Positions 5,587 through 57,037 of a DNA stretch of 64,000 nt are shown piece after piece. Location: assembly GCA_903866275.1 (NCBI GenBank), contig CAIPMU010000018.1, forward strand, positions 1 to 64,000, written 5' to 3'. Numbering within the stretch: position 1 is the first letter of the stretch; each line of letters starts with the position of its first letter. Below the pieces are notes generated by a model. That model did not search any database. It saw nothing but the letters and a program-made list of their open reading frames with translations, and was not told the DNA's origin. The position numbers and the translations under genes were made by a program. The DNA is from Vampirovibrio chlorellavorus (GTDB lineage Bacteria > Cyanobacteriota > Vampirovibrionia > Vampirovibrionales > Vampirovibrionaceae).

Positions 5587-8500
5587 ATGTCCCTAACCAC
5601 CGGGGTAAGCCACCCCAATACCGGCCCATTGCCAACCCATAAACTGCGTTTCCAGGGTGATTTAACCCCGGTAGCTTCTCGTGGCGCGGGTGGACCTGTC
5701 GGTCTTCTGGGCAGTCTCGCACGGGGTATCGGGAACCTGCGTGCGCCGGGTCAATCGGTTGAAAACTTCTTTCTGAATACGGCCAAGGAAGGACCAATGG
5801 CCATCGTGCCTCTGGAATCTGCTGTGGTGGTGGGGCGTTCCGAGCGGGCCTACCGTCGTGATGGCTTTTTGGAGCTGCAGGAGCGCGTGACCGAAGAGAT
5901 TGCCGCTGCAGTGGTCTGGCTGTTCGGGGTGGGCTTTTTGCAGAAACAGTTTGAAAAAGCCTCGCAAAAGCTGAATCCCGGTAAAAATGAACATCTCTCC
6001 ACGCACATAGCCTGGAATCAACCCTGGGCGAAGACCACACATGTGGATCTGAGCCCGCAAGAGATGTTTGCCCGCAACAAAAAGGAAATTAATATCCTGT
6101 TGGGCTTGAAGTCTGCTCGCTGGCTGTTTAGTGTGGGCAGCGCCCTGGTGGCGGTGGGCTATCTGATCCCCAAGGGGAACCAGCTCAAGACCAGCTTTAT
6201 CCTGAAACATCTGGAGCGCAGAAAAAGAGCCTCGGAGGGATCAAACGTCCAGTTTGGCGATCCTCGCCAGGCGCACTCGCCTGTGGGCGCGACCTTGGGT
6301 CATGGCTCAACAGTCCTGTCTTCCCAAGCCAGTCGCCTGACGCCTGCTGCCTTGCCTTTTTTCTCGGCCGCCAGCAACGCCGCCAGCAGCCCCACCACTG
6401 TTTTACCGACTGGTAACGGCAACATCGCCCAGTATCCAGCCTCCAATAGTCTTAACCCCACAAATTCGTTCAATACCAGTCCATTCCAGTCCAATCGATC
6501 CAATATTCAGGGAGTTCCATCATTTCAGCCCCATTCGGCCAACTTTCAGGCGCGAACGGTTAGTACAGTCAATCCCTCTGGCATAGCCGCAGGGGTTGCC
6601 GGGTATAACCCCTCTGCCAGATTGACGCCCCCTGCAAGCAGCAATGTGACCCCTCATCATGGCGACGTGCGCTTTGGGGGCGGCTTGCCCGGCCTCTCGA
6701 TGGTTCAAGGGCTGGGACATCTGGTGGAGCAGACCCCTTACGGCAGCATTCTAGTCGTCGATGCCGGTATTGCAGGCGGTCGTGGCTATGTGGCCAGCAA
6801 GCGCAGCCCGTATGAGACTGCCGAGGTTCTGTTCCGGGATATTGGTTCCCTCTACTTCTATATTCTCTGTGTGCCGCACCTGATGAAGTTGATGAGCAGC
6901 ACAATCGATCCACGCTTTAAGAGCAGCAGTCATCTGCAGCCCAAGGTGGCCGGACTTCTCCACGAGGCATTGAAATCGGTCACCTCTCCCGCCGCCTTGA
7001 CCAGGGCGCTGAATGGGGCCGGTGAATCCATGATGGCCCCAGAAGGTCAGTTGCGGCAGGCATTGCGGCAGGCTGACGGAAACACGCTCAGGCAATTGTT
7101 GACGCAGGAGGCCGAGGTCTATCTGGGTAAAGGTCCCTTGTCTCCAGAGATTCAGGGTGCGCTCTTTGCGCGGTTGATCCAGCACGTGGAGCCGGGTCAG
7201 ATTCAATCCCTGTTGACCGCCATTGATGAAGGTCAGGAGGCCTTTGGAAGTTTGGGCAATACCGAACGTAAAAACCTGATGATTGCTGTGAAGCAGGCCT
7301 TTCGGCATACGGTTGGCCTGAAAGAGATTCCCTTGGGAAACCCGGCTGCCCTCAAGACTCACCCGGCTTTTGCGTCTCTGTTTAGTGCCCTGGAGCGGGA
7401 GCATCCTGAAGAAATTCAACCCCTTCTCCAGCGCATTGAGCGGATGGCCACGCTGGATGGCATGAATCAGAGTCATTCCATGTTGCGCCGCAGCCTGAAC
7501 CTGATGCGGCCTGACGGGAATAACAAGGCGCTGATTGCCCAAGGGGATCGGCTCGCCAATTGGCTGGACGAGGCCATTCACCGGCAGCAGCCCATTCAGG
7601 AGAGGCTGGAGGCGCATTTGGCACAACTGGGCGAACAGCTTCATGCCTTGAGTGAGGCCAGTCGTCAGGAAGTGCTCCATGTGCTTAATCAGGGCGTTTC
7701 GGGGTCCTTGGGTAACCTTCAGAACGCCATGCGCTCGGCCAGCACCGGCCAGTTGAGTAAACTGGAAGCTGCCCTGACCCAACTCAGTGAGCAAAAGGGT
7801 AAGCTGCCAGAGATGCTGCCCATTCAGCCCAGCAAGCTGCAGGCTATCAAGGTTAAGGTGAAAAGTCTGATTCCTTATATCAAGACCGAAGCGGTCAAGG
7901 TGCACGAACTCAAGGAGCGCCTGAGTGACCTTAACCGGATGTTGGGTCAGTCGCATGCGTCTGGCACGTCTCCTGTGGTTGCGCTGAAAAGCAGCCTGCA
8001 TGAAGTGATGGCGACATTGGACAATCGGGCCAGCGGCATTGAACGCGACATTCTGAAAACCTATCGCAATGAAATTGAAACCTTACTGGGCAAAGGGGAG
8101 CAACCGGGTACTGGCCGGTTATTTGCTCTGGCCATTCAGCAAGACGATACCGCGCTGGGGCAAAAATTGCAGGAACTGTTGCGCGGAGGGCTGCTCAATG
8201 ACAGTCGCTTACTGAGTCAGGCGCTGGATACCGTGGGCGAACTGGAGACGGATTCTCGTAAAGTGCCGGGAACGCGCAATGCGGATAAAATGCGGCAGGC
8301 CATTCAGGACTACGGAAACACCCTGATGAAGCGCCTGAGTCAGCCGAAACTGGCCGAGTTGTCAGGACAGGCCCTGCAGCACGAACTCAATGCGTTCCTG
8401 AATTTGAATAAATATCTGCATTTTGGTTCACGCGGGATTGCACTGGCAACCACGATGGCCTGTATCGGCTGGCTGGTGCCCATTGTACAGACCCGAATGA

Positions 8501-8742
8501 CGAAACAGCTCACAGGCATGGATAACAATCCGGGCATTGCCAGCGCCAAAAAACAGGTGGATCATGAGAATAGCCCGACAGCGGCTCAAACGGTCGCATC
8601 CACGGCATCGTCTATGATTGGCAGTTTATCCGATAGTCTCAAGAAGGCTTCTGTGCCAACGTTGCCCAAACCCAGCTGGATGCCGCCTTCGGTGCTACCG
8701 CCTGCCTTGCCAAATTTACCGGGTCTGGCACCTTCTGCCTAA
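5587..8742 (+). CDS. large uncharacterised membrane-associated protein (1051 aa)
   Basis: Not recognised as a known family. The N-terminus has no signal peptide and includes HKLRFQGD. Hydrophobic segments lie near residues 98-118 (AAAVVWLFGVGFL), 176-196 (LFSVGSALVAVGYLIP), 418-438 (SLYFYILCVPHLMKL) and about 943-963 (ATTMACIGWLVPIVQ). Between about 205 and 345 there is a low-complexity Asn/Ser/Pro-rich stretch. Residues 450-930 are long, Leu/Gln/Glu-rich helices suggestive of coiled coils. The tail is Pro-rich. The last membrane segment followed by TKQLTG (972-977) recalls the membrane-segment-plus-TG pattern of the two paralogues at 47-50.6 kb. Ribosome site GAAGG precedes the ATG. Coding is clear from length; function is unknown. 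Confidence 0.8.
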   Translation: MSLTTGVSHPNTGPLPTHKLRFQGDLTPVASRGAGGPVGLLGSLARGIGNLRAPGQSVENFFLNTAKEGPMAIVPLESAVVVGRSERAYRRDGFLELQERVTEEIAAAVVWLFGVGFLQKQFEKASQKLNPGKNEHLSTHIAWNQPWAKTTHVDLSPQEMFARNKKEINILLGLKSARWLFSVGSALVAVGYLIPKGNQLKTSFILKHLERRKRASEGSNVQFGDPRQAHSPVGATLGHGSTVLSSQASRLTPAALPFFSAASNAASSPTTVLPTGNGNIAQYPASNSLNPTNSFNTSPFQSNRSNIQGVPSFQPHSANFQARTVSTVNPSGIAAGVAGYNPSARLTPPASSNVTPHHGDVRFGGGLPGLSMVQGLGHLVEQTPYGSILVVDAGIAGGRGYVASKRSPYETAEVLFRDIGSLYFYILCVPHLMKLMSSTIDPRFKSSSHLQPKVAGLLHEALKSVTSPAALTRALNGAGESMMAPEGQLRQALRQADGNTLRQLLTQEAEVYLGKGPLSPEIQGALFARLIQHVEPGQIQSLLTAIDEGQEAFGSLGNTERKNLMIAVKQAFRHTVGLKEIPLGNPAALKTHPAFASLFSALEREHPEEIQPLLQRIERMATLDGMNQSHSMLRRSLNLMRPDGNNKALIAQGDRLANWLDEAIHRQQPIQERLEAHLAQLGEQLHALSEASRQEVLHVLNQGVSGSLGNLQNAMRSASTGQLSKLEAALTQLSEQKGKLPEMLPIQPSKLQAIKVKVKSLIPYIKTEAVKVHELKERLSDLNRMLGQSHASGTSPVVALKSSLHEVMATLDNRASGIERDILKTYRNEIETLLGKGEQPGTGRLFALAIQQDDTALGQKLQELLRGGLLNDSRLLSQALDTVGELETDSRKVPGTRNADKMRQAIQDYGNTLMKRLSQPKLAELSGQALQHELNAFLNLNKYLHFGSRGIALATTMACIGWLVPIVQTRMTKQLTGMDNNPGIASAKKQVDHENSPTAAQTVASTASSMIGSLSDSLKKASVPTLPKPSWMPPSVLPPALPNLPGLAPSA

Positions 8743-43694: not shown

Positions 43695-43936
43695 CGCGCT
43701 GAGTTCTGGTTTATCGGCAGACAATGGATTTTGCGGCATTTTTCAGAGCGAGGGTTGTTAAACGAAGTTTTCATGGCAAAACACGACTTTTCAGTCTGAT
43801 CTTCCGTCAGCCAACTCAAGTGATGCAATGAATCCGTAAAACGGTTGAATTACAGGATTTTCGCTGCTAGCGCGTTTCACCCAGCCGTCACCTCGCCGGA
43901 TCGCCAAGCCCGCTTCTTTTGAAATACTTCAGCCCC

Positions 43937-43966
43937 TTGGGATTCTGTGGGACTGGCCTGTATAAT
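43937..43966 (+). promoter_or_regulatory. murJ promoter abutting the start codon
   Basis: TTGGGA (43937-43942), 18-base spacer, TATAAT (43961-43966). The murJ ATG begins at 43973, six bases beyond the -10, so transcription would start at the ATG. GGGAG between them could instead be a ribosome site if an upstream promoter is used. Confidence 0.55.
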
Positions 43967-43972
43967 AGGGAG

Positions 43973-45670
43973 ATGACTATTGCCCCCGATGAACCCTATA
44001 GCAACCCGGATGCGACTGACGTGTGCGCCGCCAATCAGACTGAACCACCGGTGAGCCAACCAGTTTCAGCGCCTGCGCCAGCTTTTCGGGCGCCCAGTTT
44101 GCTGAAAGCGGCGGGGTTGATTGCACTGGTCACTATTTTTAGCAAGGTCTTGGGCTTCGCCCGCGACTGGGCGGTGATGTATGTCTATGGTACCTCACTG
44201 GTCAGCGATGCCTACTATGCGGCCTTTCAGCTCCCCTCTTTTGCCATTGTACTTCTGGGCGGACTGGGTGGGCCTTTTCATACCGCCACGGTGTCCGTCT
44301 TTTCCCGGCTAATTAAGGACAACGAGGCCCCCAGCGCCGAAGCCAAACATTTGGTGGGCACGTTCATCACTCTCACCGGGGTGGTGTTTACGGTGCTTTC
44401 CATTCTGACCCTGCTGTTTGCTAACCCCTTGATGCATATCATTCTCCACGGGGCCAGACCGGAACTGATTACGCTGGCCGCTCGCCAATTGCAGGTGATG
44501 AGCCCCTGCATTCTGGCCGGGGGCATTGTGGGCATTCTCTACGGGATCTCCAATATTTACCACTGTTTCCTCTGGCCTTCGCTCTCCCCCGTGGCCATGA
44601 GTATTACCATTATGGCCGGGCTGTTGCTGTTTCCTAACGACAACACGGGCATGGTACTGGCGTGGTCAACGCTGGCGGGCGGCTTGTTGCAACTGGTGAT
44701 GCAGTTGCCCGAGTTCTTCCGGCAAAAGTTCAACCTGAAACCCGCCTGGTCGTGGAAAGCCCCGGAAATCCGCAAGGCGGGCGAGCTCTTGTTTCCTGCC
44801 ACCGTGGGCACCACCATTGGCCAGCTGATCACTTATGTGGATATGTTCTTTGTCTCCGCGCTGGGTACAGGCGGCTGGTCGGCTGTGACGCTCTCCAACC
44901 GTTTGGTGCAGTTGCCCTTGGGTGTGCTGCAAACCGCCTTGCTGGTGCCGATTTTCCCCCGGTTCAGCCGAGCCGCTGCCGATGGCAACTTTGACGAGAT
45001 CAAGCGCACCTTCAAGTTGGGCGTGATTTCCCTGTGGTTGATCAGCATTCCGATTCTGGTCTTGATGCTCCTGTTTACCGAGCCGATGGTGCGGCTGATT
45101 TTTCAGCACGGCAAATTCGACGCCCACGCCACCCATCTGGTATCGCTGGCGCTGGTCTTTCAGGCCCTGCAAATCATCCCCTACTTTGCCCGTGATTCAA
45201 TCACCCGTGTTTTTTACGCCTTTCAGGATTCCAAAACCCCACTCATGGTAGGTTTGCTGGCGATCTTTACCAAATGGGGCCTGAACGCGCTGTTGGTGCC
45301 CCAGTTCGGGGTGGGCGGCATTACCTTTGCGATCACGCTGGTCACGTTTATCAACATGCTCCTGTTGGGTGCCCTGTCCAAAAAACACATTCAGGATTTG
45401 GGCTTCAAGGAAATGGTGCTCCCCTTCGCCAAGTTGATGCTCTCTGGCGCGCTAATGTATGGCGTGATCTGGGCCGTGCAGTTCAGTTTGACCCATCAGG
45501 CCGCTGACTTATTCTCCACCCTCAAACCTCAATGGGCTGAACCGATCCAGATTAGCATCGCGACCGTGATCGGCGGTAGCATCTATGTGCTGTCGGCACT
45601 GGCGCTCAGGATCAGCGAAGCCCAATACCTGCAGGAACGTCTGCTTGGTCGCTTCCTGCGCAAGAAATAA
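43973..45670 (+). CDS. murJ: lipid II flippase MurJ
   Basis: Fourteen-helix MOP-family flippase that moves lipid II across the inner membrane for peptidoglycan synthesis. The 565 residues begin with a 40-residue hydrophilic, Pro/Ala-rich tail. The membrane part starts LLKAAGLIALVTIFSKVLGF and keeps FARDWAVMYVYGTS, DAYYAAFQLPSF, the conserved HGARPE-type loop, TLSNRLVQLPLGVLQTALLV and FARDSITRVFYAFQDSKTPL. These include the conserved Arg and Asp residues of the central cavity. The ATG at 43973 is chosen over an in-frame TTG at 43919. It converges on the GH13 gene with only six bases between stops. Confidence 0.93.
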   Translation: MTIAPDEPYSNPDATDVCAANQTEPPVSQPVSAPAPAFRAPSLLKAAGLIALVTIFSKVLGFARDWAVMYVYGTSLVSDAYYAAFQLPSFAIVLLGGLGGPFHTATVSVFSRLIKDNEAPSAEAKHLVGTFITLTGVVFTVLSILTLLFANPLMHIILHGARPELITLAARQLQVMSPCILAGGIVGILYGISNIYHCFLWPSLSPVAMSITIMAGLLLFPNDNTGMVLAWSTLAGGLLQLVMQLPEFFRQKFNLKPAWSWKAPEIRKAGELLFPATVGTTIGQLITYVDMFFVSALGTGGWSAVTLSNRLVQLPLGVLQTALLVPIFPRFSRAAADGNFDEIKRTFKLGVISLWLISIPILVLMLLFTEPMVRLIFQHGKFDAHATHLVSLALVFQALQIIPYFARDSITRVFYAFQDSKTPLMVGLLAIFTKWGLNALLVPQFGVGGITFAITLVTFINMLLLGALSKKHIQDLGFKEMVLPFAKLMLSGALMYGVIWAVQFSLTHQAADLFSTLKPQWAEPIQISIATVIGGSIYVLSALALRISEAQYLQERLLGRFLRKK

Positions 45671-45676
45671 TTTGCG

Positions 45677-47443
45677 CTAATAGCTCGGCAACTGCTTGGC
45701 GAGATTCGGCGTGTTGATCTCAAACATGTGGAACCGTCCAGGGCCGAGATCCACGCTCATCTGGTTAATACCGGGGTAGAAATAACTGGGTCGCCCGTAA
45801 CCCGGCACCCGATTGGTCATGGGCTGGGTGGGCAGAAAACCGGGAATGGCCAAGGTGGCCTTTTGCTCGGCGTTGATGTCTTTGTTGGCCACGATCAGCA
45901 GGGTTTTACCTGCGGCCTGCCGGGCAAAGGCAATCACCTGATTGTTGGGGCCGCCGTTCACCGGAATGGGAATAAACGCGCCTTGCGTCAGCACTGGCCC
46001 ATAGGCCTTACGCAGGTTGAACATCTGGCGCATGAACAGGCCGATTTCCGGGTGGTTGCCCTTGTGCTGCGGCACGAAGTTGAAAATGTCGAAATCGCCA
46101 GTGTAGCCGGTGGTAAAGCCATCCAGAATGTAGGGGTTGGTGTAGGGCTGGGTGGCCATCAGGCCACTGGCCAGCATGCACATGGTGGCGCCACCGTGCT
46201 CCATTAAACTGGGATCATCGTGGGTGAGGAAGGAGCCGATCAGGGATTTGTCACTGCCGCCGTTCTGGCTGGCCCGCTGGAACATGGCCCGATTGGACAG
46301 CAGGTAATCCATGTACTCTTTGGCATTCACCATTGAGTGAAAAATATGGAACTGCCCGTAATACGAATCAAAGCCGGAACGCAGCAGATCTTCGGGAATG
46401 TCACGGGGCAGGTTTTTCAGGGGCGATTGATCTTCCTGACAGTAACTTTCTGCCAGCCAGGCCTTATCCGGGTACTTGCCGGTAAAGTGTTTCCAGAAGT
46501 CCAGCGTGCGGGCACGGGCCACATCCACCCGGAAACCATCCACGCCCACCTTGTTGGCCATCAGATCAAAGAAGCCTTCGTAATAATCCTGCAGCTTTTG
46601 ATCGTTTTTGAACATCACGATGTCCACCCAGTTGGTGGGGGTCATGGTTTTGCCGTTCTTATCCTTGGCGATGAGATCTGGACGAGACTGCGATAGATCC
46701 GAGGAAGCGCAACTGGGCACATCCACCATCACCCGAATGCCGCGCTGATGACAGGCTTCCACAAACTGGCGGGCCTCTTGCAGGGCATCGGTGGTATTGC
46801 CGGGCACGTCAAATTCCGGGTTAATCCGGTGATAATCGGACGGGGAGTACAAACTGCCGCCCGCGCCCAGGCGTCGGTTCTGCCCAATGGGGTTAATGGG
46901 CAACAGGTGCACCGTGTTGATCCCCAGATTGACCAGTTGGTCCAGCTTGTTTATAGAAGAAAGGAAGGTGCCGTTTTCACCCAGCCTGACGGAGATTCTA
47001 CCATCGTTGTTCTTGTCTTCCGCCCCAAAGGTGCGAATGTTCAGGGCGTAAATCACTGCCTGATTTTTATGAAAGAGATCCTTCAAGTCGTTTTTCCACG
47101 GCCGGGGAGCGGTTGTGGTCATCGCCCCGAGGCCATTCAGGCCGGGCACATTGGCAGGCATCCCAGGGGGCGAAGCCTGCATCCGAATCCCGCCCATTGG
47201 CAAGTTGGCGGCATGGTAGGGACTCATCACAAACAGGGGCCATGGCTGGATTGGCGAAGCATTTTGCTGGACAGGCTGATGTTGCATCATCGGGTGAGTC
47301 AGCGGGTTGGTCGTTGAAAAAGCGGTGGGCGTTGGTAGTGGCAGCACCGGTGGCAAGGCAGGCATCATTGGCAACATTGGCAAGGCGGGCATACTGGCAA
47401 ACAGCGACGGCAGTGGATTCAGGGGTGGCAAGGTGGGCATCAT
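45677..47443 (-). CDS. GH13-like alpha-amylase family protein with Pro/Met-rich N-terminus
   Basis: Alpha-glucan-acting barrel enzyme, 588 residues. Region II GFRVDVARA (nucleophile Asp307), region III WLAESYCQ (acid/base Glu332) and region IV FLTHDDP (His408-Asp409) are present, with LVNLGINTVHLLPINPIGQ as the first barrel strand. Region I is altered: VMVDVPSCAS has Asp241 but not the usual Asn-His. Residues 1-110 are Pro/Met/Leu/Thr-rich (MMPTLPPLNPLPSLFASMPA) without a signal peptide. A C-terminal beta domain starts near residue 490 (GKTLLIVANKDINAEQK). It is the last gene of an operon with the two paralogous membrane proteins, each overlap being ATGA. Activity is likely; exact specificity is unknown. 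Confidence 0.88.
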   Translation of the reverse strand: MMPTLPPLNPLPSLFASMPALPMLPMMPALPPVLPLPTPTAFSTTNPLTHPMMQHQPVQQNASPIQPWPLFVMSPYHAANLPMGGIRMQASPPGMPANVPGLNGLGAMTTTAPRPWKNDLKDLFHKNQAVIYALNIRTFGAEDKNNDGRISVRLGENGTFLSSINKLDQLVNLGINTVHLLPINPIGQNRRLGAGGSLYSPSDYHRINPEFDVPGNTTDALQEARQFVEACHQRGIRVMVDVPSCASSDLSQSRPDLIAKDKNGKTMTPTNWVDIVMFKNDQKLQDYYEGFFDLMANKVGVDGFRVDVARARTLDFWKHFTGKYPDKAWLAESYCQEDQSPLKNLPRDIPEDLLRSGFDSYYGQFHIFHSMVNAKEYMDYLLSNRAMFQRASQNGGSDKSLIGSFLTHDDPSLMEHGGATMCMLASGLMATQPYTNPYILDGFTTGYTGDFDIFNFVPQHKGNHPEIGLFMRQMFNLRKAYGPVLTQGAFIPIPVNGGPNNQVIAFARQAAGKTLLIVANKDINAEQKATLAIPGFLPTQPMTNRVPGYGRPSYFYPGINQMSVDLGPGRFHMFEINTPNLAKQLPSY

Positions 47444-49254
47444 GCGTTGGGCACTCCTGCGGGCTTTTTCACGACCGGCTTAAAATTGCGGCCCACAAGG
47501 AAATAATTGTAGAGCGCCGTGGCCGCCAGCAGGCCGCCACCCACGTACAGCCCAACGCGGGTGCGCCACATCTTGCCCAGCATCTCGCTCTTCAGGGCAT
47601 TTCCCAATAGATGCTCTTCGGGGGCTGCGCCCATCATATCAAAGGCCCGGCCAAACTGGCGCTGATCGTTCTGGACACTGTGCACGATGCCGTAAAAAGT
47701 CTCCCGGTTACCCACCAGTTCCTTGGGGGCCTTCCAGTGACCGGCTCCCAGCGTCTCCTGAACGCCATTGATGGTCGGCGACTTCATGAGGGATTTCAGC
47801 GACTTTTTGAGTTCGTTTTTATTGGTCAGGGCATTGGGCGCGGTAAGGGCCTTAAACAGCTTGCGGTAGTGGATGATGGTGCTTTCCGCATTCGCCAGAC
47901 GGGTATTGCGGGTCATCTCCAGCGATGCCAGATGTTCGTCGCTCAGGCCATCCTTGAAACGCTCCAGATAGTCATCGGTTTCTTTCCAGATGTTGGCCAG
48001 CTTGCCGGAAATCTGTTCTTCGCCGTTCACGGTTTCCCGAGACAGTTGGTCATCCAGGAAGGCCAGTGTTTTATCGATCCGGGGCCGGTCTTTCTCCCCA
48101 AGCATGATGAGATGATCAACCAGCTTGTCGCGCTGCACGTCTCGATTGGCGTTGCGAATTTCCTTCAGGCTCATGGCGTTCATGAATCCGGCCTGCTTGA
48201 CCAGATCCCGCCCAAACTGGTGCCACCAGCCGGAAAGTTTTGATTCGGGCACTGCGCCAATCACCTGATTCAGGTAGACTTCCGCCTTGTGTGCCAGGGC
48301 CGATTCAGGGGTGGTTTCCCTGGCGAAGACCCGCTGGGTTTCCATCAGGGCAAACTGACGTTTGACCGCGTTTACGCCACACATCACCGGGTTTTGCAAT
48401 AGATCGCAGGTCAAGCCGGAGATCACGGGGGTGGCCGGGCCAGCAGCCAACATCCACCAGGTATGCGCTTGCACCGAGACCTGGCGCATCTTCTCTTCCG
48501 TCTCCCGGCGACGGTTGGGGCCAGTGGGAATGCCCAATTTGTCCGCCGCGCGTTCAATCTGCTGATCGGTGAGAATATGCAGGGGAAGATAGTTGGGGTC
48601 TTTGTAGAGATTCAGGCGCTGCCCGTAGGAGCTGTCATAGTTCTGGTTCAGGTTCACCCCGGTTTTCAGGTGGACCATTTTGTTGATCATCGCCGGGGTG
48701 GCGGCCATGGCGCCAAACCAGCTTAAAAAGCCCAGATATTCACCCACGCCAAAGATGCCCTGCTTGAGGCCCATTGTGGCCATCGTGGCAATCCCCAGGC
48801 TGGCCGCGCGTTTCAGGTTGTCATCAAAAGTGATGAGTTCATGATCCTTGACCGGTTGATTGCTGGCCACATCGCCCAGCAGGTGCTTGGTTTGCTTGAA
48901 ATTACGGATGGGACCGCCAATGGGTTCCCATTGGATCAAGTGGGCGTAATTGCCGGGGAAAGACTTTTGCAGCTCTCCAAAGAAGTTGTTGCCCATCGAG
49001 AAAAAGGAGTCGCTCCAGCTGGAAGCGTTTGCTGCCGGGTTTACCGGGCTTGGGCTGGCTGGATTCATGGCATTGAGTGCTAACGGCACCGAGGGTAGCG
49101 GGGCAGGCGCGATTGGGTTCAGGGGCATGGGAGAAGCCGTCCAGCCTAAGTTTGCGCCTGTATACGGGGACGGAGCCGGTTGGGGGGCATACAAGGCCCA
49201 GTTGTTTGGCCGAACCGGCGGGAATGGGGTGAAAGGTGTCAATGGTGCACTCAT
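47440..49254 (-). CDS. uncharacterised membrane protein, paralogue of the 442-residue neighbour
   Basis: A 604-residue protein of unknown family. The first 75 residues are Pro/Ala/Ser-rich. Hydrophobic stretches lie around 155-195 (LGFLSWFGAMAATPAMINK), 250-275 (WWMLAAGPATPVISGLTC) and 575-598 (LYVGGGLLAATALYNYFLVG). Residues 197-206 (KTGVNLNQNY), LHILTDQQIERAADKLGIPT and RQVSVQAHTWWMLAAG align with RTGIDLNQKY, LDLLSDAQYEKLIRKMGIPT and RQIISAARADKLILGN of the preceding gene, so the two are paralogues. Residues 290-560 are helical, charged and specific to this copy. Start and stop overlap neighbours by four bases. Function unknown; a scaffold or membrane anchor for the GH13 protein is a guess. 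Confidence 0.82.
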   Translation of the reverse strand: MSAPLTPFTPFPPVRPNNWALYAPQPAPSPYTGANLGWTASPMPLNPIAPAPLPSVPLALNAMNPASPSPVNPAANASSWSDSFFSMGNNFFGELQKSFPGNYAHLIQWEPIGGPIRNFKQTKHLLGDVASNQPVKDHELITFDDNLKRAASLGIATMATMGLKQGIFGVGEYLGFLSWFGAMAATPAMINKMVHLKTGVNLNQNYDSSYGQRLNLYKDPNYLPLHILTDQQIERAADKLGIPTGPNRRRETEEKMRQVSVQAHTWWMLAAGPATPVISGLTCDLLQNPVMCGVNAVKRQFALMETQRVFARETTPESALAHKAEVYLNQVIGAVPESKLSGWWHQFGRDLVKQAGFMNAMSLKEIRNANRDVQRDKLVDHLIMLGEKDRPRIDKTLAFLDDQLSRETVNGEEQISGKLANIWKETDDYLERFKDGLSDEHLASLEMTRNTRLANAESTIIHYRKLFKALTAPNALTNKNELKKSLKSLMKSPTINGVQETLGAGHWKAPKELVGNRETFYGIVHSVQNDQRQFGRAFDMMGAAPEEHLLGNALKSEMLGKMWRTRVGLYVGGGLLAATALYNYFLVGRNFKPVVKKPAGVPNA

Positions 49255-50579
49255 CGCTTTTTACCCCCCGGTGTTGTGTGGGGAGGGGTCATCTGGGTGC
49301 GGGCTTCCACGTGCTGGACGGTTTCAAAGATGCTCTGCCGGTTCAATCGGGGTACGTCGCCGCCGGGCAGGTTGTGCTGAATGGCTGCGGTTTCCGGGGA
49401 GAGTTCCGGGGCCAGTTCTGGCGGCAGGTTGCTCAGGAAGGGCGACAGGTAGGGGCGATCCTGACGGCTCATCACGTTCCAGCAATGCCACAGCACCAGA
49501 CCGGAACTGGCTGCCAGCCCGCCCCACAGGCTGCGGCGGAGCCAGGGGTTTGCTTCGTTGGCTGCACCAAAGAAGACTTCTTTGACGGCGGGGCCGATTT
49601 TGGCCTTGAAGAATTCCAGCGTTTTCTGGGAACGGTTCATCCAGTCGCCCTGCTGGGCATCTTTGGACCAGATGGCTTTCAGGGGGCTGTTGCTGTCTAG
49701 GAGTCTTCCCCAGAGTTCATTTCGGGCAATGTAACCAGCACCAATGGCAGCGGCAATGTTCCCCAGAATCAGTTTATCGGCCCGTGCGGCGCTGATGATC
49801 TGGCGGGTCTGGTCGTTGACCTCCCGTTTGGGGTCTGCCACGTTGGTGGGAATGCCCATCTTGCGGATGAGTTTCTCATACTGGGCGTCGCTCAACAGGT
49901 CCAACCGCGGGAAATCCACGCTGGCAAAGACTTTTTCTACATCCCCGTTGGGCTTGCGATACTTTTGATTGAGGTCGATCCCCGTCCGGTACTTGAAAAA
50001 TTCGTTGATCCCAAGATTGGTTGCGGCGATGCCGAGGAAGTAGGTTGCCACGCCAATCCCCTGACGCAGCCCGTTAAAGCGGTCTCCGCCCAGAATAAAG
50101 CTACCGGCCAGACAGGCGCCACCCAGATAGTAGGGAATATTGGCCACATCCAGAAAATCGGAGAAGGTGAATCGGTTATCCCCCTTGAGCCCTTGCACGA
50201 TGGTTTTGGGCAAGGTGACAAAGCCGTGCTGAAAGCTCATTTTAATCTTCTGAGGCACGGTTTGTTTCAGCAAGCGGTCTGTGAACGGGGTGTCCAGATC
50301 GTATTTCTTCCGGGTAATGGGATCCACCAGCAGATCGGTCAGGGCTACGGCTTTCTCTTCACCATCTCCCCCGGTTTGAACCAAAGTCATGCCGGGCGGC
50401 AAGCCATTTTTGCCGGGAGCGGAACCGGGTGTCGGCAATGGGGTAGAGCCAGCGGCGGCATTGAGGGCGTACGCCGGGGTTTTGCCCATCGGGGTTCCTG
50501 GGGCTTGCACAGGCTGAATCCACTGGGCTGAGAGGCTCAGTGGTGATGTAGCAGTGGTATAGGTTGGCGATAAGCCCAT
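49251..50579 (-). CDS. uncharacterised membrane protein, first gene of the GH13 operon
   Basis: A 442-residue paralogue of the 604-residue neighbour. I chose the ATG at 50577-50579 (MGLSPTYTTATSPLSLSAQ), preceded by AGG nine bases upstream. The frame is open to an ATG at 50681, but the added residues (WFTCSHITFWHTVKVW) look untypical. After a Pro/Ser/Thr-rich N-terminus come hydrophobic segments YYLGGACLAGSFILGG, VATYFLGIAATNLGINE, ILGNIAAAIGAGYIA and SLWGGLAASSGLVLWHCW. RTGIDLNQKY falls at residues 198-207, almost the same position as in the paralogue. The C-terminus is Pro/Glu-rich. A sigma70-like promoter lies at 50719-50747. Function unknown. Confidence 0.82.
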   Translation of the reverse strand: MGLSPTYTTATSPLSLSAQWIQPVQAPGTPMGKTPAYALNAAAGSTPLPTPGSAPGKNGLPPGMTLVQTGGDGEEKAVALTDLLVDPITRKKYDLDTPFTDRLLKQTVPQKIKMSFQHGFVTLPKTIVQGLKGDNRFTFSDFLDVANIPYYLGGACLAGSFILGGDRFNGLRQGIGVATYFLGIAATNLGINEFFKYRTGIDLNQKYRKPNGDVEKVFASVDFPRLDLLSDAQYEKLIRKMGIPTNVADPKREVNDQTRQIISAARADKLILGNIAAAIGAGYIARNELWGRLLDSNSPLKAIWSKDAQQGDWMNRSQKTLEFFKAKIGPAVKEVFFGAANEANPWLRRSLWGGLAASSGLVLWHCWNVMSRQDRPYLSPFLSNLPPELAPELSPETAAIQHNLPGGDVPRLNRQSIFETVQHVEARTQMTPPHTTPGGKKR

Positions 50580-50718
50580 ATGTAAACCTAAAAAGACCCC
50601 GAATTTGGACCAGACTTTGACAGTGTGCCAGAACGTGATGTGAGAACAGGTAAACCAAAAGTTGCCACGGACTCTCTCCATGTAAGAACCGTGAATACAT
50701 TAAATTGTCATGAATCAA

Positions 50719-51017: not shown

Positions 51018-54000
51018 GTGCCCACTATCAAGCATTCACAGCCTCGCTTCGCCGGTTACCGAGTATCCGACGGTCAGGCCAAGCTGTATTTGCCGGGGCA
51101 AAGCCATCTGAAACCGGAGCAGCTGAAGGCTGAAGTGATTCTGCCCGGCGCAAAGCAGGTGACTACTATCCCCATGACCTCAAACGGGGACTACTGGGTG
51201 TCCACGCAAACGGTTCCTCTGGGGACTGATTACCGCTTTCGGACACATCAGAAACCTGAGTTTCAGGTGAAGGTTTCCATCAAGGATCAAACGCCCTTTG
51301 AGGCGCTGACGGTTCAGCAGAAGCAGGGCGAGCACGGGGTCTGGGAATTTACGTCCCCGTTTGAAATTGGTTCTCAAATGGCGTTTCAGGTTCCGGTTCA
51401 GGAGGATATGCCTCGGATTCGCGCGGAAAAACTGGAGCCGGGGCAAGATCCCCAAGTGCTGCCGGTTCGTCGTGAAGGACAAACCTGGGCCTTTGAAGAT
51501 TTGAACGCCAGGCCGGGCACCACCTACCGGTTGTCCCCTGCGCTGGATGCGCTGGAAGTGGTGACCCATAATCCGTTCGGCAGTTTTAACCGGGTGTCTC
51601 CACACGAGCTGAATACACCCCAGAACAGCACCGTCATGGCCGATGTGTTTCTGGACAGTCTGGTGTCCAGCAAGCGCCTCAAGCAGCTGGAACAGGCTGA
51701 ACGAGCCCAGCAGGGTCTGTCAGCCCTGCCGGATGATGAAGCCGCGCAACCGCATCATCCCGTGTTGCCTGTCCGGAACCCCTACAACCAGTTTGCGGTG
51801 GATAAAAACGCGCCGGCGTCGCTTCCGGAAGCTGGTTTAAATGAGATGTTACCCCGGCTGCAACAGGCCGGATTCTCTTCGGTTCTGCTGAAGCCGTTTA
51901 TAGGGGGGGACAATCTCACTTCTCACCGGTATTGGACGGTGGACCCTTATGTTCTGAACAACAGTTTCCGGGACAAAAACAGTTTCCGGGATACCTTGCG
52001 GCAGATGTTGAACCGCAATATGAAGCTGTATGCCGATGGGGCCTTCGTCAATCAGGGGCTGGATGGCGTGCATGTCACTTCCAATCTGGTGCATGGACTG
52101 GCTTCTCCTTATTGGCGCTGGCTGAAGGCGGGCGATGAAAATGCCCCCGGCGGTTTGGCCACCTACCCGAATCTGGCGCATAAAAAGTATACGTTTGGCG
52201 TGTTGCCCACTAAGTTGAACGACATAACCCATCTGCCGGAACTGGCTGAGGGGCATTATGCGGTACGGATCATTAACGATCCCACCGATCAACGCGTTGA
52301 ATACGATAAAAAACGCCCGACGTTCATCGAGTTGTACGATCCCCGTCTGGAAAAAACCAACGGCGATCCTGTAATCTACGAGCGACCGGAAGATCGCCCC
52401 ATCATTAAAACCAGCACGGATTCGGTGCAAAAATACCGCTTCCCGGTTGGCGCACAGGAAGTGCTGGATAAAGCCAAAAAGAACGAGTTACACGGGCCTG
52501 GCTTGCTGGAATGGAAACGTTTTCGACTGGACACGCCCGGTTCTGATGATTCCGGCGTGAAGTGGGACGGGCAGGTCAACACGGCCATGCTCAATACCCG
52601 TAACCCCGAAGTGCTCGATTACCTGAAGGGGGCCGTGGGCTACTGGAGCCGAATGGTCATGAACACCCATGTCGGCAACGTGACTGAAGCCCTGATGCAG
52701 GCCAAGGCCCAGCACAAGGACGCCAACCTGACCCAGTTGCTGGAGGCCATTACCCAGCCCGTCACCCCCACAACCCGACAGGAAGCGACACGGTTACTTC
52801 CCCCGGCCATGACAGATGCTGTGCTTTCCGATAAAGCACTGAGCAAGGTGTATGACGCCGTAGCGCCAGATCACACTCGGGAAGCTTCCGGTAAGGCCTT
52901 TGCCCAGCGAATGCTGGAGGAAGTGCCCTTGAATGTGCTGCCCCTGCCCACGCTCTTTAAGGCTAACTTGTGCTATCCCGGTTTGACGGAAGCCCTGAAT
53001 CCGGTCAAGCGGGGCGGATTTTCCAATTTCATGAATCACGTGGTGCTGGGCAATCTATCCCGTATTCCACTTCTGGGGCACCTCTTCCGGGCGATTCGCA
53101 ATTTCGTTTTCCCCAAACCGTTTCAGGTGAAGCTGGGCGAGAAGCTGGGACATATCTTTGAGCAGTTGAGCCCGGCGGCTCAGGACAAACTGCGTCATGG
53201 CCAGATTCAGTCCTTGCTGGCGGATCGGGTCAGCGAGACCTTGTACCTGTCTCTCTTGACGGACTTGCCACCCAATGAAATCCGGGAAATCCAGAAGGAT
53301 GTCGCGCATCCCAAGCGTTTGGAAGAAGCTTTCTATAAAGGGATACCGCTGGATCTGCTGCAAGCCGATCCGGTTGTTGCCGCAGAGCTCTTGCCTCGCC
53401 TGCTGAATCAGCGTCTGGATAAACTGGCCAGCCGACAGATTGGGAATATGATGGAAGCTGAGTTGAAAAAGCTCGATCCACAGTTGGCTGCCGTGGCTCA
53501 GGCCGTCTTGCAAAAACGGGAAATGGGCCTGAACTGGCGGATTGACGCCGCCCGTGACGTGGGTGATATGGCCCGCGTGTTTGAAACCCCGGCCCATAAC
53601 CGCACTAAGGTTTTTCAGGAAGAAATGGGCTTTGTTCAGACGTTCTGGGATAAGCTCACGCAGGCGATGCGTGGCCCCTCGAACAAGACTTCCATTATCG
53701 CGGAGCTGACCGACTTTGAATTGCTGGCCAATAATAATCAACCGGTGGCCCGGCAAGCCCTGAAGCAGTTCTTTGATCGGAACACCTTCACGGGGACGCC
53801 CAACATGAGCTACCTGTACAGTCCTATTTCACAGTTGATTCATTACGCCCAGCGTCCGGACGAGTTTGGCGGTAGTCAGATTGGCCCTGGCGACTTCCTC
53901 AATCAGATGCAGCGCAGTAGTGAAGCGGTATCTTTCCCTGCCCTCCGGGATGCCCAGAATTTGACCAGCAGTCACGACTACCCTACCAGCAGTCATGTGA

Positions 54001-55352
54001 TGATGATTAACCCGGATCTGTTTACGATGGATCTGGTGAAGTGGCGGGGGCTGAAAGATGACCTGACCGTGTCGATCAACGAGTTGAAAGACAAGGCCTG
54101 TTTTGCAAAAGACCGTGTCGGGTTGCAAACAACCCTGGGTCTGAATCAAAAAGCGTTCGATGGCGTGATGTATAGCCTCACTAAGGCGCTGGAGGACCCC
54201 GAAACGGCTGAGTTGCTGAAAGATCCGGATCTGAAAGTTTTCTATAGCGAGGCGACCAAGTCGAAAAACCCGGCGACCAATATCGGCACGCCCCACGAGC
54301 TGAAGGCAAAGTTTGTGACCGAGCTGTTGGGGACACCAGAAACCCCCGGTGTGTTAATCCCCAGCGATTTGAATCTGACGGCGCCTTCACAACTGACGGC
54401 TTTGGGTGAGGCTCTGGTAGCCCGGATTGCCGAACCCAGCGAGGCCAAGGCCATGCGTGGGGTGATTGTGAATGCGGTGCTGCAAGACAGTATGCCCGAT
54501 CCTCAAAAACAGGCCATCTGGGATGGGCTGGATGCGGCGGTTCAAAAATGGGGCAGTGCATTCGGGTATCAACCGCTGGATATTGTGCTGAATCACGTCT
54601 TTGAAGGCATGACGCCTGAACAGCGCGCGTTATTTGAGAATCCTGACGCCACCAAGCTGGCCTTGTACACCTCGGCCAATGCGCCCGTTATGGATAAGCT
54701 GAAACGGCTCTTTGCCGTGCAGGCGGCCTTGCCGGGTAATCCGTCGGTGTACCTGCAGGATCTCATGGCGGACGGCGGTAGCGAGTGGACGAAAAACGTC
54801 CAGCTTCAAAACCGGAATCTGCTGCGGGTGGATAAGTTCCAGCAGCCCTCTGTGGTGGATGTGAAAAATAAGGCCAGCGATTTCAACAACTATTTCGCCG
54901 AAGTGGGCAAAATCTTTGGCGCGCGGACCAATCCGGGGTTACGGCAGAAATACCCGCAGCTGGAAGCCCTGAACAATGGCGTCTTGCTCCCCGTCACCCC
55001 CAACGAGGAATCCGGTATTCTGCCCATCGTGCGGGATAACGGCAAACATCAGGTCATCACGTTGGTGAATGTGGGTCAGCGCAAAAAACTGGATGACGTG
55101 AACAAGACCGGGGTGGATGAAGCACTGCAAGGTCGTTACGCCACCCCCACACGGAATTACAAAACACCAGAAAATTATCAGCCCGATTTCAGTGAGCTGG
55201 GTCTGAAAGAGGGCACCACGTACGAAGATATTTATACCCACGAGCAGTTTGAGTTGCACGAAGGCCGCCTGCAAGTGGCTGGAGCGCCGTATGCTGGCCT
55301 GCCTGTCAATGGCTGGCGCATGCTGGTCAGGACCTCAAAACCTTCTGCATAA
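51018..55352 (+). CDS. giant GH13-like protein with large helical insert (1444 aa)
   Basis: Not a standard family, but alpha-amylase signatures can be followed. The start MPTIKHSQPRFAGYRVSDGQ leads into beta-rich domains (about 1-200), possibly carbohydrate-binding. The barrel begins near 275 (LNEMLPRLQQAGFSSVLLKP). Region I-like KLYADGAFVNQG has Asp340 and Asn345. Region II-like LNWRIDAARD has Asp843, region III-like SIIAELTDF has Glu896, and region IV-like LTSSHDYP has His986-Asp987. About 490 residues, largely helical, separate regions I and II. The C-terminal part (about 1330-1444, GKHQVITLVNVGQRKKLDD) looks like the beta domain of amylases. No signal peptide. The start codon is GTG, with GAGG about ten bases before. 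It is divergent from the GH13 operon. Catalysis is unproven. Confidence 0.75.
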   Translation: MPTIKHSQPRFAGYRVSDGQAKLYLPGQSHLKPEQLKAEVILPGAKQVTTIPMTSNGDYWVSTQTVPLGTDYRFRTHQKPEFQVKVSIKDQTPFEALTVQQKQGEHGVWEFTSPFEIGSQMAFQVPVQEDMPRIRAEKLEPGQDPQVLPVRREGQTWAFEDLNARPGTTYRLSPALDALEVVTHNPFGSFNRVSPHELNTPQNSTVMADVFLDSLVSSKRLKQLEQAERAQQGLSALPDDEAAQPHHPVLPVRNPYNQFAVDKNAPASLPEAGLNEMLPRLQQAGFSSVLLKPFIGGDNLTSHRYWTVDPYVLNNSFRDKNSFRDTLRQMLNRNMKLYADGAFVNQGLDGVHVTSNLVHGLASPYWRWLKAGDENAPGGLATYPNLAHKKYTFGVLPTKLNDITHLPELAEGHYAVRIINDPTDQRVEYDKKRPTFIELYDPRLEKTNGDPVIYERPEDRPIIKTSTDSVQKYRFPVGAQEVLDKAKKNELHGPGLLEWKRFRLDTPGSDDSGVKWDGQVNTAMLNTRNPEVLDYLKGAVGYWSRMVMNTHVGNVTEALMQAKAQHKDANLTQLLEAITQPVTPTTRQEATRLLPPAMTDAVLSDKALSKVYDAVAPDHTREASGKAFAQRMLEEVPLNVLPLPTLFKANLCYPGLTEALNPVKRGGFSNFMNHVVLGNLSRIPLLGHLFRAIRNFVFPKPFQVKLGEKLGHIFEQLSPAAQDKLRHGQIQSLLADRVSETLYLSLLTDLPPNEIREIQKDVAHPKRLEEAFYKGIPLDLLQADPVVAAELLPRLLNQRLDKLASRQIGNMMEAELKKLDPQLAAVAQAVLQKREMGLNWRIDAARDVGDMARVFETPAHNRTKVFQEEMGFVQTFWDKLTQAMRGPSNKTSIIAELTDFELLANNNQPVARQALKQFFDRNTFTGTPNMSYLYSPISQLIHYAQRPDEFGGSQIGPGDFLNQMQRSSEAVSFPALRDAQNLTSSHDYPTSSHVMMINPDLFTMDLVKWRGLKDDLTVSINELKDKACFAKDRVGLQTTLGLNQKAFDGVMYSLTKALEDPETAELLKDPDLKVFYSEATKSKNPATNIGTPHELKAKFVTELLGTPETPGVLIPSDLNLTAPSQLTALGEALVARIAEPSEAKAMRGVIVNAVLQDSMPDPQKQAIWDGLDAAVQKWGSAFGYQPLDIVLNHVFEGMTPEQRALFENPDATKLALYTSANAPVMDKLKRLFAVQAALPGNPSVYLQDLMADGGSEWTKNVQLQNRNLLRVDKFQQPSVVDVKNKASDFNNYFAEVGKIFGARTNPGLRQKYPQLEALNNGVLLPVTPNEESGILPIVRDNGKHQVITLVNVGQRKKLDDVNKTGVDEALQGRYATPTRNYKTPENYQPDFSELGLKEGTTYEDIYTHEQFELHEGRLQVAGAPYAGLPVNGWRMLVRTSKPSA

Positions 55353-55577
55353 CGGCTTAATAGCCTTTTTCTGAGGGCGAAGATGAGTTTGATTGGTGTT
55401 GCAGGTCCGGGTTGATGTGCTTTGCCGGCTTTTGATTTCACGTGTTCGGATTTACATTGTAAAGATAAAAAACACAATGACGCCGCGACTTTAGGCGGTT
55501 CTGGAAACTCGTCTATGGTCAAAATGCACTGCCTGTGGGAAAATGGTCCTCATTCGAGGAACAGGGTCAAAATTTAT

Positions 55578-55609
55578 CCGGCAATCCTGCCGGGTTTTCG
55601 TTTTTGTTT
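55578..55609 (+). terminator. intrinsic terminator between the 1444-aa gene and the transporter
   Basis: Stem CCGGCA/TGCCGG with loop ATCC, then a T-rich run (GTTTTCGTTTTTG). It lies 226 bases behind the 1444-residue gene and only 55 bases before the transporter start, inside the otherwise gene-free 55353-55663. It either ends the upstream transcript or works as an attenuator in the transporter leader. Confidence 0.7.
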
Positions 55610-55663
55610 AGGCATCGCCTATGCAGGCATTTTTTGATCCAGATCACAAAAAGGAAAACATCT

Positions 55664-57037
55664 ATGCCCCCCGGAATCCTGACGCCGACCCAACCTTCGT
55701 CCAAGCATTCAGCCACACTGGACGCATCGGGAATCGACCCTGAGGCATGGAAAAAGAAAAGTTTCTGGCAACTGTTTAACATCAGTATTGGCTTTTTGGG
55801 CATTCAGTTTGCCTGGGCCATTCAAATGGGCCAGATGAGCCCGCTTCTGGAACGTCTGGGTTCCAACCCGCAACTGCTGGGGCTGATTTCTTGCGCGGGT
55901 CCCGTGACCGGCGTTTTGGTGCAGCCCATTATCGGGGCGCTCAGTGACGGGTGCCAGTTGTCGATGGGGCGTCGGCGACCCTTTTTGTTGATGGGCGCGT
56001 TGTTGACCGCTGTCGCATTGATTTTAATGCCATCTTCCACCGAGCTGTGGATGGCTGCCGTTCTGCTCTGGTTGCTGGATGCCAGCATTAACACCACGCA
56101 AGGTCCTTACCGGGCCATCGTTTCCGATGTGGTGCATAAAAGCCAGCAGGCTACCGCCTACTCGTTGATGGGCCTCACCATCGGCTTGGGCTCAGTGGCG
56201 GCGTTCCTGATTGCGGCACAGATTCCTTCGCTGCATAACCTGTTTTATCTGGGAGCCTCGGCCATGGTGCTGGCCATTCTCTGGACAGTGATCACCACCC
56301 CGGAGCCTCCTGCTTCTCCCATCACAGTGCCCCAGGAATTTGCGGCCCCCAAAGGTAATTTTTTCGTAGATACTATCAAGTCCATTGTCAGCATGCCGAC
56401 TGAGGGTCTGAAACTTTGCGTGGCGCACAGCTTCACCTGGTTTGGGCTGGCCTGTCTGTTTACGTTTTTCTCGGTGTTTGTACCGCACCACGTGTTTGGG
56501 GCGGCAACTCCCCAAAGCCCTCATTATGAGGAAGGCGTGCAGTGGGTTTCTTACTGCTATGCCGCGATGAATGCGCTTTGCTTCCTGTTTTCAGCGTTTA
56601 TTGGCAAGCTCTGCGCGGCCACTTCCAAGAAAATGACACACACGCTGGGTTTGCTTTGCATGGGTGGCGCCTTTCTGGCGATGCCCTTCCTGACGAGCCC
56701 CATGCATGTGATGATTGCAATGGGTCTGGTGGGCCTTGGCTGGGCGACCACCTTGTCCATTCCCTTTGCCCTGCTGTCGGATCACCTGCCTTCGGGTAAA
56801 GCGGGCGTGATGATGGGCACCTTCAACATTTTTATTGCCGCACCGGGTGTGTTGAGTAACCTGCTGGTCGGCCCCATTGTTAGTCATTATCACAACAATC
56901 ACGCGGTGGCGTTGATCGTCGGTGGTGTGGCCATTCTAGTGTCAGCGCTCCTGCTACAAACCGTCAAGGAAGTCCAAGTGCTGCCTTCGCAAGTGCTTCA
57001 CACTGAGGACGCCGAACCGGCCCTCGCGTCGGCCTGA
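55664..57037 (+). CDS. MFS sugar transporter of the SLC45/GPH type
   Basis: Twelve-helix inner-membrane permease, 457 residues. The order FLGIQFAWAIQMGQMSPLLE, LLGLISCAGPVTGVLVQPII-GALSD, SMGRRRPFLLMGALL and LLDASINTTQGPYRAIVSDV closely follows the SLC45/sucrose-maltose transporter branch, whose members import disaccharides with protons. The RRRP loop between helices 2 and 3 and the QGPYRA-x-x-x-D segment are characteristic. The ATG at 55664 follows AAGGA eight bases upstream; the frame is open further but without such a site. Position behind the GH13-like genes suggests sugar or maltooligosaccharide uptake. Confidence 0.88.
   Translation: MPPGILTPTQPSSKHSATLDASGIDPEAWKKKSFWQLFNISIGFLGIQFAWAIQMGQMSPLLERLGSNPQLLGLISCAGPVTGVLVQPIIGALSDGCQLSMGRRRPFLLMGALLTAVALILMPSSTELWMAAVLLWLLDASINTTQGPYRAIVSDVVHKSQQATAYSLMGLTIGLGSVAAFLIAAQIPSLHNLFYLGASAMVLAILWTVITTPEPPASPITVPQEFAAPKGNFFVDTIKSIVSMPTEGLKLCVAHSFTWFGLACLFTFFSVFVPHHVFGAATPQSPHYEEGVQWVSYCYAAMNALCFLFSAFIGKLCAATSKKMTHTLGLLCMGGAFLAMPFLTSPMHVMIAMGLVGLGWATTLSIPFALLSDHLPSGKAGVMMGTFNIFIAAPGVLSNLLVGPIVSHYHNNHAVALIVGGVAILVSALLLQTVKEVQVLPSQVLHTEDAEPALASA

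Follow-up and report, generated by a model that had tools for sequence, protein, structure and literature searches.

What is the task of a GH13 (alpha-amylase family) enzyme that is encoded in one operon with two putative membrane proteins outside any described family? This question is raised by a locus of Vampirovibrio chlorellavorus that lies in a window of 64,000 nucleotides, the window being the whole stretch of DNA that was analysed. A first-pass annotation had described here three minus-strand open reading frames joined by ATGA overlaps, two of them paralogous and the third GH13-like, and had offered two readings: a membrane-tethered alpha-glucan system or a set of proteins delivered by a secretion system. 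The features of the operon are as follows.

49251..50579, minus strand: gene A, 442 aa, start ATG at 50579
47440..49254, minus strand: gene B, 604 aa, paralogue of A
45677..47443, minus strand: gene C, 588 aa, GH13 (alpha-amylase family) barrel
49251..49254, minus strand: ATGA overlap of the A stop and the B start, read in the sequence (gaps in related loci are given below)
47440..47443, minus strand: ATGA overlap of the B stop and the C start, read in the sequence (gaps in related loci likewise below)

Gene order and inheritance of the operon

The three frames were found where the annotation had placed them, and both overlaps are seen in the sequence, at 49254-49251 and 47443-47440. For gene A the ATG at 50579 (MGLSP...) was chosen over the start of a longer open reading frame at 50681 because the relatives begin with MG[IL][AST]P. 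Spacing is equally tight in related loci, where the A-B gap is mostly -4 to +1 (68 loci) and the B-C gap mostly -8 to +2 (72 loci); a single operon is borne out by this gene order with overlapping or abutting genes. In three genomes (G195, G203 and G212) B and C form a single open reading frame of 1030, 1082 and 986 aa, respectively, in the order B then C. The fusions span three genera of Vampirovibrionaceae, and the Vampirovibrionaceae genome that holds locus L072 carries a natural B-C fusion. Genome G212 contains two copies of the operon (L048 and L049), one with a fused B-C and an intact catalytic triad, the other unfused.

Contigs of related genomes were collected by an alignment-based search, which gave 80 contigs, a search by C alone having returned no match. 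In these contigs and in the stretches retrieved with their neighbours, the order A, B, C is found on every contig of sufficient length. The arrangement is syntenic in Vampirovibrionaceae, a sister family and Gastranaerophilaceae (the sampled families f1 and f2 were read as Vampirovibrionaceae and Gastranaerophilaceae, respectively), and its named carriers include V. chlorellavorus NCIMB 11383 (L066) and many Candidatus Gastranaerophilales. Absence of the arrangement from related genomes had been named beforehand as the observation that would speak against the operon; it is present in them, so the claim survives.

A profile of B matched 131 of the 292 genomes of the phylum, namely every Gastranaerophilaceae genome in the sample together with the genome of the window and a single one from family f43. 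Within the order 13 of 18 genomes matched, the four f37 genomes and one incomplete genome (G242) giving no match. Both A and operon-type C were found in the same 50 genomes of a class sample of 117, in which G262 showed a weak distant match to C only; A and B had no match in sampled f3, f39-f42 or photosynthetic cyanobacteria. The three genes are the sole ones found together in all loci (61/61), and with few exceptions the genomes sampled from two orders hold one copy of the operon. Within Gastranaerophilaceae the trees of the three proteins have correlated distances (r 0.84-0.94, against at most 0.23 after permutation). Inherited vertically, the operon belongs to the core of Gastranaerophilaceae and likewise to that of two families of Vampirovibrionales. 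A phage origin was considered and discarded, since B had no tblastn match in 50,697 phage records.

A pair of paralogues and a GH13 enzyme

Homology between A and B, suggested initially by eye, was confirmed by BLASTP (E 3e-13, 31% over 140 aa) and by profile-profile comparison (hhalign 98.3%, E 2.4e-14 over 182 columns), and in most related genomes the profile of either protein also weakly matches the other. The motif [KR]TG[VI][ND]LNQxY that had been read in both proteins is indeed present in each at about residues 197-207. Four hydrophobic segments are colinear between the two, located at 142-160, 173-191, 267-285 and 353-371 in A (alignment of 51 homologues) and at 143-161, 167-185, 265-283 and 569-587 in B (alignment of 36 homologues). 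Segments 2 and 3 flank a conserved charged cap (TG[VI][DN]L.Q.Y ... LL...Y/E...GIP), which in A covers residues 192-266 with the pattern TG[VI]D..Y...FPRxDLL...GIP. The proteins differ in what separates segment 3 from segment 4: 67 residues in A and about 285, mostly helical, in B. The B proteins of Gastranaerophilaceae usually have 750-900 aa.

The designation of A and B as membrane proteins holds in that the four segments exist, but not at the strength given to it, as the hydrophobicity peaks in the window proteins reach only 1.26-1.38 (Kyte-Doolittle, 19-residue window); family means of the segments are 0.94-1.78. Segments this weak leave room for A and B as peripheral or partly soluble proteins, and because all the long loops are rich in Lys/Arg the positive-inside rule cannot fix their topology. 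Judged from the sequences, insertion in the membrane is likely. The Pro-rich N-termini noted in the first-pass annotation are found in the window and near relatives and are not conserved in Gastranaerophilales.

Neither protein gave a hit above cut-off in Pfam or NCBIfam or a convincing match to PDB sequences. AlphaFold models (pLDDT 73 and pTM 0.64 for A; pLDDT 78 and pTM 0.68 for B) agree in their common part, where both have helices in the same order plus a small beta hairpin; Foldseek searches with both models gave no match in the PDB at E<=0.001, and the A model had none among viral models. On these profile and structure comparisons the pair is an undescribed family, as had been supposed, and no known family with another role was found. 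A 1051-aa protein encoded elsewhere in the window (5587-8742, plus strand) also has no Pfam match and has relatives in f1, f38 and f2, like A, B and C; its occurrence in the same families as the operon makes it a possible further component specific to the lineage. As a remote homologue of A or B it was rejected (hhalign probability 1-8%).

Protein C consists of a Pro/Met-rich N-terminus (about residues 1-115) followed by a GH13 barrel, in agreement with the earlier assignment. It matches PF00128 above the cut-off (E 3.6e-8), and its profile retrieves 4gkl (E 1e-38), 3dhu (E 4e-33), the maltosyltransferase 1gju (E 1e-30) and GlgE (about 1e-20) from the PDB. The catalytic residues D307 (nucleophile), E332 (acid/base) and D409 (transition-state stabiliser) are invariant in 80/80 C proteins, and so are R305 and H408; by its residues C is a catalytically competent GH13 enzyme. 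Region I reads DVPSCAS in place of DVxxNH: its Asp (D241) is invariant and the Asn-His pair is replaced by Ser-Cys, a change that is nearly invariant in the family. The D-x-x-x-N-H form of this region is common, not universal, in GH13, and the lack of the Asn-His pair suggests that the activity of C may be unusual. Of the three proteins C has evolved most slowly (median tree distance 1.15 vs 1.66 and 2.61).

No signal peptide was detected in C, as expected from the first reading, nor was any hydrophobic segment in the window protein. An exported paralogue of C in Gastranaerophilaceae (L060:7403-8950 and L061:7991-9526, both plus strand) starts with a typical Sec signal and is located elsewhere in the genome from the operon; the difference argues that operon C stays in the cytosol. 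In L061 the nucleophile and the acid/base of this paralogue are replaced by Cys and Gln, so it may be a pseudoenzyme, and its 1476-aa neighbour in L060 shows no similarity to the protein encoded by gene D (see below).

Metabolic setting, neighbouring genes and competing explanations

In addition to C, the genome of the window encodes TreZ, TreY, GlgX, a MalQ-type 4-alpha-glucanotransferase and a TreS-like protein, and GT5 glycogen-synthase-type proteins were detected in 8/9 operon carriers tested. These enzymes, together with GT5 in most carriers, indicate that alpha-glucan metabolism is present. The carrier without a GT5 match, G195, implies that C need not act on glycogen made by the cell itself. 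The genes for TreY, the MalQ-type enzyme and TreZ are adjacent in L226:5520-12943 (contig C18 of the same genome, about 160.5-168 kb), forming a trehalose-from-glucan cluster.

The explanation that we favour, with moderate confidence, is that C is an active enzyme positioned on the cytoplasmic face of the membrane by a platform of A and B, where it acts on alpha-glucan. According to this proposal A and B, an ancient duplicated pair, would assemble into a hetero-oligomeric platform that sits in the cytoplasmic membrane or on it; C would be made in step with them through translational coupling and held on the cytoplasmic face via the C-terminal end of B. Its substrates at the membrane may be chains of alpha-glucan or maltodextrin, which it would cut or transfer, imported or stored alpha-glucan being one example. 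A tether for C is deduced from the B-C fusions, the overlapping genes and the co-inheritance. Of the two initial readings the membrane-tethered alpha-glucan system is thus the better one, given the fusions, the invariant catalytic residues and the perfect co-occurrence.

The surroundings of the operon comprise the following genes.

51018..55352, plus strand: gene D, divergent giant protein of 1444 aa, weak GH13 match
55535..57037, plus strand: MFS transporter akin to GPH/sucrose symporters; follows D in the same genomes
43919-45670, plus strand: MurJ (lipid II flippase) gene, convergent with C

The amylase match of D is limited to residues 273-342, and D adjoins A in part of Vampirovibrionaceae only, which places it outside the core unit; no conserved neighbour beyond A, B and C is kept across the family. 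Some neighbours are the basis of a different account, in which A, B and C would serve the assembly of an envelope polysaccharide or lipid-linked glucan together with undecaprenyl-phosphate recycling and C would act on an envelope glucan, possibly on the periplasmic side. An UppP-like gene lies directly upstream of the operon in 25/61 loci, following kdsD-kdsC-queD in part of Gastranaerophilaceae (names assigned by eye from the sequences), and in the window C converges on MurJ, which ends 6 bp away. The MurJ adjacency is not conserved in relatives, however, and with 25 of 61 loci the UppP and kds genes were rejected as fixed partners; as C also lacks the signal peptide that its exported paralogue carries, we regard this account as unlikely. 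Somewhat less probable still is that C is mainly a structural partner, like the ectodomains of rBAT/4F2hc, with A and B as the functional part, for instance a channel or a lipid-handling device. Obligatory co-occurrence would suit such a role, as would the joining of a GH13 domain and a membrane-associated protein in one chain, and the unfused second copy of C in G212 (L049) has Pro/Tyr in place of H408/D409, but none of the 80 operon C proteins departs from the three catalytic carboxylates and C evolves more slowly than A or B.

Co-regulation without a complex, in which C is a soluble intracellular amylase and A and B have an unrelated membrane task, is given a slightly lower chance again. 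It accords with B and C being separate proteins in most genomes and with an N-terminus of C that appears as a low-complexity tail with no obvious docking motif; it fits poorly with B-C fusions in three genera and with exact co-occurrence and co-evolution across two orders. Delivery of the proteins into prey or host cells, the other initial reading, is now very improbable. A, B and C are devoid of Sec signals, and a type IV secretion system has been proposed for the predator Vampirovibrio (PMC4451040), yet the operon is found in every sampled Gastranaerophilaceae genome as a vertically inherited unit, in gut commensals as well as predators, the four hydrophobic segments are kept in both the A and B families, and no common delivery signal was found, the N-terminal F-x-G motif being weakly enriched and unspecific. 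As a targeting motif (hydrophobic-x-F-x-G, in A, D and others) it was rejected: it is about 3-fold over internal windows (7/323, p 0.019 post hoc) in one Gastranaerophilaceae sample, with no enrichment in Vampirovibrionaceae or a cyanobacterium. Short N-terminal motifs such as INFxG/NFSAK were observed in several signal-less proteins (L158-L177, L059, L061 and the Gastranaerophilaceae homologues of A).

Significance and comparison with known systems

Literature searches returned no description of an A-B-C operon, and a 2024 review on the alpha-glucan enzymes of prokaryotes (PMC11046441) includes in its main text no membrane-tethered, cytosol-facing GH13 enzyme and none of the membrane-tether terms searched for. 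The enzyme is of a known kind and the A/B pair is an undescribed family, so that two of the three operon proteins fall outside any described family or fold. The carriers belong to two orders of non-photosynthetic cyanobacterial relatives that include common gut bacteria, and with V. chlorellavorus among them the operon represents a concrete target for understanding alpha-glucan use by these largely uncultured bacteria. A more far-reaching view is put forward tentatively, as possible rather than probable: A and B may be membrane scaffolds that work as a pair and represent a new family and a new fold, and with the GH13 protein they may constitute an obligate, stoichiometric membrane glucan machine, core and lineage-defining for Vampirovibrionales and Gastranaerophilales, which would carry out at the inner membrane a carbohydrate reaction undescribed in other bacteria.

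Among characterized systems, the GH13 amylases (4gkl, 3dhu), the maltosyltransferase 1gju and GlgE (3zss) share with C the barrel, the D/E/D triad, R305 and H408. C differs from them in its long low-complexity N-terminus, in the Ser-Cys that stands for Asn-His in region I and in its genetic link, by a shared operon or a fusion, to a membrane-associated protein. The alignment to GlgE chains is restricted to the barrel part; the GlgE N-terminal domain was not found in C, Pfam GLGE_C gave E 0.18 only, and no GlgE equivalog is among the NCBIfam hits listed.

The best NCBIfam hit to C is treS_nterm (E 6e-14), of the TreS/oligo-1,6-glucosidase group, and C has, following the first strand, a DxNxDGxI loop similar to the metal-binding loop of this group. 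The score is nevertheless 51 vs a curated cut-off of 678 bits, and the C-terminal part of trehalose synthase is absent.

In rBAT/4F2hc, the heavy chains of heteromeric amino-acid transporters, an extracellular GH13-like domain with an N-terminal single TM segment is combined with a 12-TM transporter partner of the LeuT fold. The likeness to the A-B-C operon lies in the coupling of a GH13-type domain to a membrane protein or partner. In contrast to rBAT/4F2hc, C has no TM segment of its own, and A and B have only four weak segments each and no Pfam or fold match to any transporter; moreover, the fusions carry the GH13 domain at their C-terminal end, and this domain is presumably cytosolic and retains an invariant catalytic triad.
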